From Salinicola aestuarinus (lineage in GTDB: Bacteria > Pseudomonadota > Gammaproteobacteria > Pseudomonadales > Halomonadaceae), in the NCBI RefSeq assembly GCF_003206645.1, contig NZ_PZJP01000002.1:62205-126204 (forward strand): a stretch of 64,000 nucleotides of DNA. The letters run 5' to 3'. Shown one piece after another: positions 4,855-54,686 of the stretch. Within the stretch, counting starts at the first letter, position 1. The number at the start of each line of letters is the position of its first letter. The position numbers were made by a program, and so were the translations under genes. Below the pieces are notes generated by a model, which was given only the letters and a program-made list of their open reading frames with translations, was not told where the DNA came from and did no database searches.

Positions 4855-5709
4855 TCATGCGCCGAGCAGCAGTGTCTGATAAGCGCCGATCAGCGGCTCG
4901 CCGATGAGCAGGACCACCCAGCCCGCCAGGGCGATAAACGGGCCGAACGGTAGCGGCTGGTCACGTTGATGACGTTGAGTAGCCACCATGACAACGCCGA
5001 CGATGGCGCCGAGCCCGGCCGAAAGCAGCAGTAGCAGCGGCAGGCTCTGCCAGCCGAGCCAGGCGCCGAGCGCCGCCATCAGCTTGAAATCCCCGTAGCC
5101 CATCCCCTCCTTGCCGGTGGTCAGTTTGAACACCCAGTAGACACTCCAGAGAATCAGATAGCCCGCCACGGCGCCGAGTACGCCGCTCGCCAGCATCAGC
5201 GGTTGCAGCAGCAGCTGGTACAGCAGCCCGGCCCAGAGCAGCGGCAGGGTGAGCGCATCCGGCAGTAGCTGCGTGCGCCAGTCGATCACGGCGAGCGCCA
5301 GCAGCGTCAGACAGGCCCCCAGCAGCCAGAGGGTGGGCCACGCCAGGCCCTGTACCCCAACCAGGCTGACGGCGAGAAGACCGCCGAGCAGTTCCACCAG
5401 CGGATACTGCACGCTGATCGTGGCCTTGCAGCTGGCACAGCGGCCGCGGCGCTTGAGCCAGCCGACGATCGGTAGGTTGTCGTGCCAGGCGATGAAGTTG
5501 CCGCAGTTCGGGCAGTGCGAGCGTGGCGTGGCCAGGTCGTAGCGGCTCTCGGCATCGGTCTCCAGCGACAGTGCCAACTGAGCCTCGGCACGCCAGCGGC
5601 GCATCAGCATCACCGGCAGGCGCACGATCACGACGTTGAGGAAACTGCCGAAGACGGCGCCGAAGAGAAAGACGAGCGGCCAGAGCAGCAGAGAGGGCAA
5701 ATCGAACAA
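4855..5709 (-). CDS. pilD: Prepilin peptidase / N-methyltransferase PilD
   Basis: PilD is an inner-membrane aspartyl protease that cuts the leader of type IV prepilins and methylates the new N-terminal phenylalanine. The 284-residue protein has the zinc tetrad C66-x2-C69 and C91-x2-C94, catalytic aspartates D143 (VIDWRTQLLPD) and D207 (GMGYGDFK), and about eight hydrophobic helices. Translation appears to begin at TTG, with GGAG 8 bases upstream. It is downstream of pilB and pilC, and would process PilA encoded nearby and possibly type II secretion pseudopilins. Confidence 0.96.
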   Translation of the reverse strand: MFDLPSLLLWPLVFLFGAVFGSFLNVVIVRLPVMLMRRWRAEAQLALSLETDAESRYDLATPRSHCPNCGNFIAWHDNLPIVGWLKRRGRCASCKATISVQYPLVELLGGLLAVSLVGVQGLAWPTLWLLGACLTLLALAVIDWRTQLLPDALTLPLLWAGLLYQLLLQPLMLASGVLGAVAGYLILWSVYWVFKLTTGKEGMGYGDFKLMAALGAWLGWQSLPLLLLLSAGLGAIVGVVMVATQRHQRDQPLPFGPFIALAGWVVLLIGEPLIGAYQTLLLGA

Positions 5710-5843: not shown

Positions 5844-7070
5844 CTAGATGGCAGAGCCCATCTGAAAGATCGGAAGATACATCGACGCGACCAGTCCGCC
5901 CACCAGCACGCCGAGCACCACGATGATCAGTGGTTCGAGCAGGGAAGTCAGGGCATCGACCTGATTGTCGACCTCCTCCTCATAGAAGTCCGCCACCTTG
6001 TTGAGCATGGCATCGAGCTCGCCGGACTCCTCGCCGATACTGACCATCTGCACGGCCATGACCGGGAAGACCCTGGCGCGGCGCATCGCGAAGTTGAGCT
6101 GTTGGCCACCGCCTACGTCCTCGCGAACCTTGTCGATGGCGCGCTGATGCACTTGATTGCCGGCCGCGCCGGCGGCGGTTTCCAGTGCTTCTACCAGCGG
6201 GATGCCGGCGTTGAAGGTGGTCGCCAGCGTGCGCGAAAAGCGCGCGATGGAGCTCTTGTCGACGATGTTGCCGAGCACCGGCAGCTTGAGCATCACGCCA
6301 TGCATTCGAAAGGCGAAGCTCGGCGAGCGCTTCATCATGGATCGCAAGCCGAAGAGGCCTGCAATGACGGCGAGGATAGCCTGCCACCAGTGCGCCTGGG
6401 CTAGCGCCGAAAGCTGGATGGTCATTCGTGTGAACATCGGCAGCTCCGCGCCGAAGCCCGCGAAGAGACTTTCGAACTGCGGCACGACTTTGATCAACAG
6501 CAGCGCCGTAACGCCAATGCCGACACCAATGACCGCCACCGGATAATAGAGTGCCTTCTTGACGCGCTCCTTGAGCGTTTCGATCTTCTCGCGGTAGCTC
6601 GCGACGCGTTCGAGCATCTGGTCCAGTGCGCCGGCCTGTTCGCCGGCGGCCGCCATGTTGACGAACATTCGATCGAAGCGAGCGGGATGCTTGGCCAGCG
6701 CCTCGGAGAGACTCGCGCCGGCGCTGATGTCGTTGGCAAGCGTTTCGACCAGGTTGCGCATCGCTGGATTCTTGAGCGTCTCTGCCACCACCTTGCAGCC
6801 CTGCAGCAGCGGTACGCCGGCACGGAGCATCGTCGCCAGCTGGCGGGAGAAGAGTGTGATATCCCGGGACTTGATGCGCCCCAGGCCGAAAACGCTGGTC
6901 TTGCGCGTGATGCGCCGGACGATCACCTTTTGGCGGGCGAGCTCCTGGCGGACCTCGTCGATTTCGCTGGCGATGAGTTCGCCGCTGATCGTCTCGCCGC
7001 GCAGGTTCTTGCCCCGCCACTGCCAGCGGTGCATGACGAGGCGCTTGGGTGGCTTGAATGACTTGGCCAT
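5844..7070 (-). CDS. pilC: Type IV pilus inner-membrane platform protein PilC
   Basis: PilC is the polytopic platform that couples the PilB and PilT motors to pilin extraction and insertion. The 408-residue protein has two T2SSF repeats (about 70-195 and 272-395), each with paired membrane helices, and the typical motifs FSRQLATMLRAGVPL and ARFSRTLATTFNAGIPL. ATG is preceded by AGGAG. It lies 50 bases downstream of pilB and is very probably in the same transcript. Confidence 0.96.
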   Translation of the reverse strand: MAKSFKPPKRLVMHRWQWRGKNLRGETISGELIASEIDEVRQELARQKVIVRRITRKTSVFGLGRIKSRDITLFSRQLATMLRAGVPLLQGCKVVAETLKNPAMRNLVETLANDISAGASLSEALAKHPARFDRMFVNMAAAGEQAGALDQMLERVASYREKIETLKERVKKALYYPVAVIGVGIGVTALLLIKVVPQFESLFAGFGAELPMFTRMTIQLSALAQAHWWQAILAVIAGLFGLRSMMKRSPSFAFRMHGVMLKLPVLGNIVDKSSIARFSRTLATTFNAGIPLVEALETAAGAAGNQVHQRAIDKVREDVGGGQQLNFAMRRARVFPVMAVQMVSIGEESGELDAMLNKVADFYEEEVDNQVDALTSLLEPLIIVVLGVLVGGLVASMYLPIFQMGSAI

Positions 7071-7120: not shown

Positions 7121-8845
7121 TCAGTCGGTGGTGACGCGATTGATCTCTTCGAGACTGGTGACGCCCGCGAGTACCGTCTCGATGCCGCTTTGGCGCAGCC
7201 CTGGATAGCCCTCCTGACGTGCCAGTCGGGCTAGCTCGAGCGCGTTGCTGTCGCTCATGATCATCTGATTCATCGCGTCTTTAACCGGCACGACCTCGTA
7301 GATGCCGATACGCCCCTTGTAGCCGAGCGTGCAGTGGTCGCATCCCACGGCACGATACAGCGTGGCGCCTGCGAGCCGGGCGCGGTCGATGCCTTCGGCA
7401 CCCAGGACCTCTTCGGTCACTTCCGCCGGGCGCTTACAGCGGGGGCAGAGCTTGCGTGCCAGGCGCTGGGCGATGATCAGCGAGACGGAGCTTGCGATGT
7501 TGAAGCTGGGCACCCCCATATTGCGGAGGCGGGTCAGGGTTTCCGCGGCGGAGTTGGTGTGCAGCGTCGAGAGCACCAGGTGCCCGGTCTGCGCGGCCTT
7601 GATCGCGATCTCCGCGGTCTCGAGGTCGCGAATCTCGCCCACCATCACCACGTCGGGGTCCTGCCGCAGAAATGCGCGCAGGGCACTGGCGAAATCGAGC
7701 CCGATACGCGGCTGAACGTTGACCTGGTTGACACCGGGCACCTTGAGCTCGACCGGGTCCTCCGCCGTGGAGATATTGCGCTCCTCCGTATTGAGCCGGT
7801 TGATGCCGGTATAGAGCGTCACCGTCTTGCCGCTGCCGGTCGGCCCCGTGACCAGAATCATCCCCTGGGGCTCGGCCAGCGCGGCTTCGAAGAGTTCGCG
7901 CTGCGATGGGGCGAAGCCGAGGGCGTCGATGCCCCAGTTCGCGGTCTGGGCATCGAGAAGGCGCAGTACGATCTTCTCGCCGAAGACGGTGGGTAGCGTA
8001 TTGACGCGAAAATCGATCGCCCGAGTAGCGTCGAGTCGAATCTTCATGGCCCCGTCCTGCGGTAGCCGGCGCTCGGAAATATCGAGTCGCGCCATCACCT
8101 TCAGCCGCGCCGACAGACGCGAGCGCAGCGTCAGTGGCGGTCTAGCGATCTCATGAAGCATGCCGTCGATGCGAAAGCGCACGCGGTAGCTCGCCTCGTA
8201 AGGTTCGAAGTGGACATCGGAGGCACCCCGGTTGATGGCGTCACGCAGGATCTTGTTGACGAAGCGGACAATCGGCTGGTCGTCCTCGCCGCCATCGAAT
8301 GCCTTGGCGTCGTTGTCGAGATCGTCTTCGCTGCTGTCGAGCGTGAGCGACTCGCTTGCCTGATCGAGCGCTTCCAGCATCCCGGAGGTCTCGTGGCTAC
8401 GGTATCGCCTGGCGAGGGCCCGCTCGAGCTGATCGAAAGGCACCAGCACGCCCTCGATCGCGAGTCCGGTGGTGAACTGCAGTTCGTCGAGCTTGGCGAG
8501 TGTCGCCGGAAAGGCGATGGCGACCGTCAGCCGGCGGTCATCACGCGCGAGTGGGAGCACCTGAAAATGGCGCACCACCTTGTCGGCGACAGGCTCGACA
8601 ATCGGCAGCTGCTCCCAGTCGACGTGGGTCAGATCGAGAAACGGCAGCCCGTACTCTCGTGCTGCCAGCTCGCCCGCGACGGTGGGGTCGACACGGCCGT
8701 TGCGCACCAGATACTCGAGCAGCGTCTGCGATGCCTCGCGGGCGGCATGGTTGGCCATCTCCAGTGCCGCGGCCTCGATCAATCCCCGATCGACGAAGCG
8801 CTGGGCAAGGTGCTGCTGCGCACGCAGGGGAATGGAGTCCGGCAT
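7121..8845 (-). CDS. pilB: Type IV pilus extension ATPase PilB
   Basis: PilB is a hexameric AAA+-like GspE-family ATPase that powers pilus polymerisation at the cytoplasmic face. From the chosen start it has 574 residues: an N-terminal MshEN/T2SSE-N domain, Walker A GPTGSGKT (334-341), an Asp box and Walker B (RQDPDVVMVGEIRD), a His box (TGHLVLSTLHTN), and a C-terminal zinc knuckle with LCPRCKR and CDHC. An upstream in-frame ATG (8893) would add 16 residues. I prefer 8845 because GAGAGG lies correctly in front of it and family members begin near there. It is divergent from pilA. Confidence 0.95.
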   Translation of the reverse strand: MPDSIPLRAQQHLAQRFVDRGLIEAAALEMANHAAREASQTLLEYLVRNGRVDPTVAGELAAREYGLPFLDLTHVDWEQLPIVEPVADKVVRHFQVLPLARDDRRLTVAIAFPATLAKLDELQFTTGLAIEGVLVPFDQLERALARRYRSHETSGMLEALDQASESLTLDSSEDDLDNDAKAFDGGEDDQPIVRFVNKILRDAINRGASDVHFEPYEASYRVRFRIDGMLHEIARPPLTLRSRLSARLKVMARLDISERRLPQDGAMKIRLDATRAIDFRVNTLPTVFGEKIVLRLLDAQTANWGIDALGFAPSQRELFEAALAEPQGMILVTGPTGSGKTVTLYTGINRLNTEERNISTAEDPVELKVPGVNQVNVQPRIGLDFASALRAFLRQDPDVVMVGEIRDLETAEIAIKAAQTGHLVLSTLHTNSAAETLTRLRNMGVPSFNIASSVSLIIAQRLARKLCPRCKRPAEVTEEVLGAEGIDRARLAGATLYRAVGCDHCTLGYKGRIGIYEVVPVKDAMNQMIMSDSNALELARLARQEGYPGLRQSGIETVLAGVTSLEEINRVTTD

Positions 8846-8949
8846 AACGACGCCTCTCAGGGTCAGTGAACCGGGATGAACGATCGACGGCACCGAGGAT
8901 CGTCAGGCCGGCAGGAGTGCACCGGCTATCGGCGGGGCAGGAAATTTCT

Positions 8950-8976
8950 TTAAGTTTCGCGACGGGTCGCCGATAA
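8950..8976 (+). promoter_or_regulatory. Sigma-28 (FliA)-type promoter upstream of pilA
   Basis: TTAAGTTT, then exactly 11 bases, then GCCGATAA. The enterobacterial FliA consensus is TAAAGTTT-N11-GCCGATAA, so 15 of 16 positions match with ideal spacing. Transcription would start near 8983 and leave a leader of about 160 bases before the pilA ATG. The match is seen directly; activity and dependence on FliA are inferred. Confidence 0.65.
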
Positions 8977-9145
8977 GCGTGACCGTGTGAGTTTGCGTAA
9001 TGCAACGTATCTATTCGGTGTTCGGGCTCCGGGTCCGGTGCCGAGCGTGGCGTCACGCGGACCCACCCGATCGCCACGCGACGCCGGCCGTGACCGGCGG
9101 CGTCAACCATCGAATCAGCAAAACAAGACAGGGCAGGGAACGTCG

Positions 9146-9646
9146 ATGCAGCAGAACTCCAGTCAGCAAGCACACCGGCAGGGCGGTTTTACCCTGATCG
9201 AACTGATGATCGTCGTGGCGATTATTGGCATTCTCGCGGCCATCGCGATTCCGCAGTATCAGGACTATGTGGCACGCTCCCAGGCGACTAGTGCACTGGC
9301 AAGCATTCGGGGCGTGCAAACTGGAGCGGAAGAGGCAATCTTGCGTGGTAAGACCCCAAAGTTGACAGGGGAAGTTACTGAAGGCGCCACCGACGAAGTG
9401 GACGTGGGGATTGGCTCTGACTCGCTCGATCTAGGAACGATTTCACTAGAACGTGAAGGGGACGTTAATGGCGCTTATCAATTAGTTATGACATTTGATG
9501 GTGAGGCTAATCCAAGGCTCAGCGTAAGCGACGCAAACACGTTAGGTCTCTACCGGGATGTCAATGGAAGATGGACCTGCCAAGGCACGATACCTACTGA
9601 GTTCCTCCCGCAAAACTGCGAAACAGGAAGTGGTGCGAGTTCCTAA
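9146..9646 (+). CDS. pilA: Type IV major pilin (PilA-like, type IVa)
   Basis: This is the structural subunit of the type IV pilus. The 166-residue precursor has a 14-residue leader ending in Gly14, then the classic methylated N-terminus [20 protein letters not shown] with Glu at mature position 5, an alpha-1 spine, and two C-terminal cysteines (C145 and C158) that would close the D-loop. The frame stays open upstream to 8987, but leader length and a purine-rich GGGCAGGGA site support ATG at 9146. The 3' two thirds are clearly AT-richer than the neighbours (27 of 60 bases G/C at 9481-9540) and use rarer codons, as expected for a diversifying or transferred pilin tip. Confidence 0.95.
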
Positions 9647-54571: not shown

Positions 54572-54686
54572 GGTGGCCCTTACCGGTCCTCCCGCAACGC
54601 TAGACCGCAAACCCCGCCAGGCCCGGAAGGGAGCAACGGTAGTGGTGGACGCGTGTGCCGGGATGTGGCTGGTCGGGGCCGCCTCC
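54572..54686 (+). ncRNA. ffs: 4.5S RNA (small bacterial signal recognition particle RNA)
   Basis: The RNA core of the signal recognition particle; binds Ffh and directs inner-membrane proteins to FtsY and SecYEG. The sequence matches E. coli 4.5S RNA closely in the Ffh-binding hairpin (CCCGGAAGGGAGCA, containing the GGAA tetraloop) and the returning arm (GACGCGTGTGCCGGGATGT), as well as in TCCCGCAACGCTA near the 5' end. The 5' GGTGGCCC and 3' GGGGCCGCC ends pair. Length about 115, close to the 114 of E. coli; ends are good to a few bases. Its place before dnaX-ybaB-recR is also seen in pseudomonads. Confidence 0.95.

Follow-up and report, generated by a model that had tools for sequence, protein, structure and literature searches.

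Which sigma factor reads the pilin gene of Salinicola, and does pilus production in this genus stand apart from the flagellar system or within it? In Pseudomonas pilA is under PilSR/sigma-54 control, and the usual account has flagella regulated separately from type IV pili, often oppositely, in the passage from swimming to attachment. A first-pass annotation of a 64-kb stretch of the Salinicola genome (the whole of which is termed ‘the window’) instead proposed a flagellar sigma-28 (FliA) promoter directly upstream of pilA. Comparison of this region and of other pilus loci across the genus, the family and an outgroup suggests that in Salinicola a large part of the machinery for type IVa pili (pilA, pilBCD, pilMNOPQ and fimV) probably belongs to the late (class III) flagellar regulon.

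FliA-type elements between pilB and pilA

In enteric-type bacteria, FliA reads the class III promoters of an FlhDC-led cascade, and it is their consensus, TAAAGTTT-N11-GCCGATAA, that was used for matching. The pilA-facing element consists of a -35 TTAAGTTT at 8950-8957 and a -10 GCCGATAA at 8969-8976 with 11 bases between them, and is identical to the consensus at 15 of 16 positions, just as the first-pass annotation had described it. It is the sole match in the window at three or fewer mismatches, and the window when shuffled 100 times held a mean of 0.09 such matches (maximum 1), which agrees with the annotation's claim that so good a match is unlikely by chance; the naming of the downstream gene as pilA likewise stands (Table 1). 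In the 3.87-Mb genome the element is the only one-mismatch match, and thus the best match to the FliA consensus. At three or fewer mismatches the genome holds 26 matches, as compared with 10 for the reversed pattern. Seven of these precede pilA, MCP-type (4), cheY or flgM genes and two precede GGDEF- or EAL-like genes, these genes being named by sequence likeness, whilst the other 17 lie inside coding frames or before genes that have no evident link to motility.

A scoring matrix was built from 16 predicted flagellar and chemotaxis sites of Salinicola, with pilus genes excluded; because these training sites had been picked as consensus matches, the matrix leans to the consensus. On this matrix the pilA-facing element reaches 29.2 bits (training sites, 21.9-28.7 bits) and the runner-up in the window 15.9 bits. 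None of 20 simulated 64-kb sequences contained a site of at least 22 bits.

The annotation overlooked a second element, which lies on the opposite strand, faces pilB and overlaps the first at the -35. It is made up of a -35 TAAAGAAA at 8952-8945, an 11-base spacer and a -10 GCCGATAG at 8933-8926, and is the weaker of the two, having four mismatches to the FliA consensus and a score of 13.0 bits that is below all 16 training sites. This is nevertheless the top minus-strand score in the window, where 0.65 sites of at least 13 bits are expected by chance per 64 kb; depending on the genome, the score of the element was reached by 0-8 of 200 shuffled regions. The strongest support for the pilB-facing element is its conservation, described below. 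The pilB-pilA region is predicted, with good confidence, to hold an overlapping pair of FliA-type promoters that are placed back to back.

The ATG at 8845 is the likely start of pilB, although its open frame extends to a GTG at 8893. A search of the window against Rfam at the gathering threshold returned a bacterial small SRP RNA (54581-54677) alone, and hence no known RNA element near the promoter pair.

Table 1. Features of the pil locus, in window coordinates
Feature	Position	Strand	Remarks
pilD, prepilin peptidase, 3' of pilC	4855-5709	-	Peptidase_A24
pilC, pilus platform protein, 3' of pilB	5844-7070	-	PilC/GspF family, below curated cut-offs
pilB, type IVa pilus assembly ATPase	7121-8845	-	771 bits; NCBIfam cut-off 676
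Second, weaker FliA-type element facing pilB	8926-8952	-	Predicted; expected start near 8919
CTTTAAG palindromic core common to both overlapping -35 elements	8948-8954		In 17/18 genomes
FliA (sigma-28)-type promoter facing pilA	8950-8976	+	Predicted; expected start near 8983
Conserved block just 3' of the pilA -10	8986-9011	+	Direct repeats, ~10-base period, in Salinicola
pilA, type IV pilin, 166 aa	9146-9646	+	Pfam Pilin (7.2e-16) and N_methyl

Conservation within Salinicola and sites at other genes

Both elements are found in the pilB-pilA region of all 18 Salinicola genomes, with invariant -35 and -10 blocks and variable spacers. Indeed TATCGGC, TTTCTT and GCCGATA are each present in 18/18 genomes, whereas in the nine bases that follow TATCGGC the top base has a frequency of 0.33-0.50; every genome has a left (pilB-side) gap of 11 bases, and the gap on the right measures either 18 or 19. 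Scores range from 14.3 to 29.2 bits for the pilA-facing element and from 11.6 to 17.0 bits for the pilB-facing one. The former was reached by none of 200 shuffled regions in 16 of the 18 genomes, by 3/200 in G013 and by 2/200 in G005. A strict divergent-pair pattern, run against 275 family genomes, gave one match in each of 17 genomes, all of them Salinicola, and its reversed control gave zero. The 18th Salinicola genome is G013, a variant pair in which the core is one T shorter than CTTTAAG. Because the pattern is strict about the TTTCTTTAAG core, its 0/257 outside Salinicola leaves room for looser pairs, and looser back-to-back pairs do occur there. Two genomes have broken pilus frames, with one in-frame TAG in the PilB match of G013 and with both PilB and PilM split in G014; these are either sequencing errors or decay.

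FliA-type sites also precede other pilus genes. Upstream of fimV, sites with no more than three mismatches lie 33-72 bases before the match in 18/18 genomes; the protein scores 36.3 bits with the FimV/HubP core model, which is under the cut-off of 43.45 (for a 486-aa portion of its frame). Upstream of pilM, a TCAAG[T/A]-type -35, an 11-base spacer and a GCCGTTA[A/T] -10 are likewise present in all 18 (11.2-19.9 bits), with a footprint that is less clean because the region is conserved beyond the motif as well. The retraction motor gene pilT was also considered as a further target and rejected, since 0/12 loci had a FliA-type site: no same-strand site better than five mismatches was present in the ~2-kb region covered at any of them, and the five-mismatch string that lies ~280 bases upstream in several loci is without a FliA-like -35 start.

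In this genome the motif recurs upstream of MCP, aer-like, cheY, flgM and motA genes. A downstream frame was recovered at 27 of the 28 Salinicola loci surveyed. Across the 18 genomes there were 17 one-mismatch consensus matches, 15 of which precede fimV (6), fliD (4), pilA (2), MCP (2) or cheY (1) genes; one fliD, one Cache-HAMP receptor and the pilin of the window were confirmed with Pfam, the rest of the 15 being named by sequence likeness, and a further locus among the 17 (L222) had no Pfam match. Weak sites appear at genes of flagellar function too. Five tandem flagellin genes with near-alike N-termini (L306:3870-9007, G000:C32) each have their own weak FliA-type site, the best of which score 11.2, 11.7, 11.2, 11.2 and 14.2 bits, and four of these sites read TACAGAAT/TAAAGAAC-N11-GCCGTTAA. 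Scores of this order are hence plausible for real late promoters in this genome, and the pilB-facing element, at 13.0 bits, is above four of the five. The flagellin sites also lend support to TAAAGAAA in the pilB-facing site and to GCCGTTAA in the pilM site. In the main cluster, a 300-base search turned up no individual FliA-type site for cheA, cheW, flhB, fliA or one MCP-like gene.

Several further observations were made in the course of this survey. In G008 (L285:3850-4430, C1), TAAATCTT-N11-GCCGATAA is located 71 bases before a PilV-type gene that heads a cluster of minor-pilin genes, in which a PilY1-like gene is also found. In several Salinicola genomes (L011 = G000:C32:638109, L224, L232 and L233) FliA-type sites stand before PAS/GGDEF-like proteins that are related to one another, and in G000 one stands before an EAL-like protein (L021 = G000:C29:780474), all named by sequence likeness, and cyclic-di-GMP enzymes may thus be part of the flagellar regulon. 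Direct repeats resembling GTAAC-N5-GTNTC, with a period of ~10 bases, immediately precede the pilM -35 (L286-L304) and are located, in many but not all Salinicola genomes, before fimV (L246-L263); we take them to be a possible OmpR/CpxR-type regulator site common to pilus genes. A matrix made from the pilM repeat finds the repeat on the plus strand just 3' of the pilA -10 in 9/18 genomes, where in the window it corresponds to 8986-9011. This block is a candidate regulator site, and a repeat motif common to pilM, pilA and fimV remains a lead because it is clear in 9/18 genomes only.

Regulators and distribution across the family

FliA, FlgM, FlhD and FlhC are all encoded in this genome, and FliA is encoded in 18/18 Salinicola genomes. 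Eight matches to PF00158 were found in the genome, four of which are long sigma-54 activators: NtrC and GlrR are over their cut-offs, one has LuxO as its best match but falls below the cut-off, and one is DctD-like by its neighbours. PilR was absent from the best 25 NCBIfam matches listed for each long activator. The annotation had also reported that no -24/-12 element is present, and this was borne out: between the FliA-type element and pilA, the best match to TGGCAC-N5-TTGC scores 10.7-12.7 of 16.4 in 18/18 genomes, as against good scores of 14.9-15.7 in 5/11 outgroup pilA regions. The regions of the rest of the family gave no good score either (0/41, the highest being 13.7). Sigma-54 control of pilA in Salinicola is consequently disfavoured by the low -24/-12 scores and the lack of an evident PilR in this genome. 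A simple scan of 8830-9160, which a non-consensus promoter could escape, gave no sigma-70-like match. The FliA reading of the annotation is well supported by sequence comparison, in that the element is conserved in the genus, the same motif stands at chemotaxis, motA and flgM genes, FliA and FlgM are encoded, and neither an evident PilR nor a good -24/-12 site is present.

Beyond the genus the picture is patchy. PilB was matched in 51 genomes, of which 50 upstream regions were taken (G031 was left out); three genomes without a pilin (G022, G034 and G030) were dropped, to leave 41 family and 6 outgroup regions. Each region was shuffled 200 times, and a site was called where its score was reached by no more than 4/200 shuffles. 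By this threshold 10 of the 41 scorable family regions outside Salinicola, in 6 of 19 genera, hold a site in either direction, as compared with about one region in 41 expected by chance. The annotation's check of conservation across the family was thus upheld within Salinicola but not throughout Halomonadaceae. The sites differ in arrangement: the three genomes of g2 (G046, G018 and G042) have a pilB-facing site of 28.7 bits each; the two of g7 have sites in both directions that lie apart; two of g27 have a pilA-facing site, one of them with a pilB-facing site that overlaps it back to back as in Salinicola; one genome of g31 has two elements that overlap in the same way; and single genomes of g34 and g36 have a site, the latter (1/5) being borderline at 4/200. 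The remaining 31 family regions, which include those of g5, g8, g24, g25, g29 and g30, have none, and g8 and g25 have regions in common with Halomonas-named records.

Additional named records were also scored (32 of 80 loci, 8 of the 32 being without a pilin). Among the 16 from the family outside Salinicola, some of which repeat genomes already counted, three reach at least 18 bits and the other 13 no more than 10.6. The three are Chromohalobacter sarecensis (28.7 bits) and C. israelensis (18.0), both pilB-facing, and Vreelandella neptunia (18.8), which is pilA-facing; three further Vreelandella are in the group at or below 10.6 bits.

Against the FliA reading, 29/38 scorable FliA-bearing family genomes outside Salinicola have pilA adjoining pilB and no FliA-type site. 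In 4/46 family genomes no FliA was found at E<=1e-50. Two of these (G051 and G230) have no sites, and G022, having no pilin, is unscored, whilst G200 (g31, L110) likewise counts against this reading, with sites of 22.7 bits (pilA-facing) and 10.5 bits (pilB-facing). Loss of the flagellum may have left the sites of G200 behind as relics, or its FliA may have been missed.

Alternative readings, precedents and a proposed mechanism

The best surviving alternative, which is compatible with the main reading and to which we give perhaps a minor share of the probability, is that the FliA promoters are genuine but secondary, pilA being read mainly from another promoter with, for example, 8986-9011 as an activator site. 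The second conserved block just 3' of the pilA -10 fits this, as do the FliA-bearing relatives that have pilA beside pilB without a site; against it, the simple scans, which a non-consensus promoter could escape, found neither a sigma-70-like nor a good sigma-54-like site. It is rather unlikely that the pilA-facing element alone serves as a sigma-28 promoter, with the TATCGGC-N11-TTTCTTTA arm acting as an upstream element or regulator site and pilB having a promoter of another kind. The lower score range of the pilB-facing element, the fair number of 13-bit sites to be expected by chance and the A/T-rich tract that adjoins the pilA -35 would accommodate such an arrangement. The arm, however, has its copy of GCCGATA at precisely 11 bases in 18/18 genomes, outscores most of the flagellin-gene sites of G000, and has a counterpart in g2 and in two Chromohalobacter records whose pilB-facing site is the strong one, and the simple scan of 8830-9160 offered no sigma-70-like match.

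That the palindrome is instead bound as an operator, with ATCGGC/GCCGAT half-sites, by some dimeric transcription factor is very improbable. Whilst the dyad symmetry about CTTTAAG and the retention of sites by G200 without a detected FliA are in keeping with an operator, the gap on the right may be 18 or 19 bases long, a one-base variation of the kind that promoter spacers show, cheY, flgM, MCP, fimV and pilM genes are preceded by this asymmetric -35/-10 unit too, and the two units lie apart in g7. Chance, or shared ancestry without function, has next to no claim: the 18 genomes are related and the 26 genome matches compare with 10 in the reversed control, but spacers and flanks have diverged where the blocks were kept, and in 16/18 genomes no shuffled region attained the pilA score.

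The proposed back-to-back FliA promoter pair has parallels in known systems. As in enteric-type, FlhDC-led systems, the sites share their -35/-10 motif and 11-base spacer with the predicted chemotaxis, motA and flgM promoters of this genome, and FlhD, FlhC, FliA and FlgM are present; unlike enteric-type class III promoters, the predicted ones of Salinicola stand in front of genes for type IVa pili, and two of them point away from each other with overlapping -35 elements. The divergent placing of pilA and pilBCD is shared with Pseudomonas, from whose PilSR/sigma-54 system Salinicola differs in lacking a good -24/-12 site and an evident PilR. The closest precedent comes from Bdellovibrio bacteriovorus and B. 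exovorus where FliA is reported to control the Tad/Flp (type IVb) pilin operon and pilA is named among the genes that are not FliA-regulated (PMC5430801). There too a flagellar sigma factor drives pilins, but in predators and at type IVb Tad pili, whereas in Salinicola the sites are at the type IVa genes pilA, pilB, pilM and fimV. In Acidithiobacillus caldus, type IV pilus RNA is reported to rise when rpoF is knocked out, a link of the flagellar sigma factor to type IV pili that has the opposite sign (PMC6543871). A FliA-driven type IVa pilin was not found in the available parts of two other papers (PMC5655016 and PMC11870540), a term search of a third (PMC8787478) gave no matching passage, and among the papers listed by one open-licence library no title or abstract opening describes a type IVa pilin under FliA. 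The annotation had not seen a swim-to-attach link of this kind described; a link between FliA and pili is nevertheless not without precedent, given the Tad/Flp pilins of Bdellovibrio (PMC5430801).

On the reading of these elements as FliA promoters, FlhDC would switch on the hook-basal body and FliA, and FlgM would hold FliA until the hook is complete and FlgM is exported, whereupon free FliA would allow the flagellins, chemotaxis genes and pilus genes to be transcribed together. E-sigma-28 at the overlapping pair would transcribe pilA in one direction and pilBCD in the other, with pilMNOPQ and fimV being transcribed by E-sigma-28 from sites of their own. Because the -35 elements overlap, one holoenzyme would be bound at a time, and pilA and pilB transcription would therefore alternate. 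The binding of FliA is predicted from the match to its consensus; the checkpoint, the extent of the operons and the mutual exclusion follow from FliA/FlgM biology, gene order and geometry.

Taken further, we lean, on balance, towards the view that the type IVa pilus machine of Salinicola, and in part that of further Halomonadaceae, has moved from PilSR/sigma-54 to the class III regulon by way of a bidirectional sigma-28 promoter, with pili being made only after the FlgM/hook checkpoint and with the retraction motor gene pilT remaining outside. If this is so, pilus production would hang on a completed flagellar hook, and the regulon of an organelle would have swapped its sigma factor between related families. 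Swimming and surface attachment may possibly be switched on together in Salinicola.
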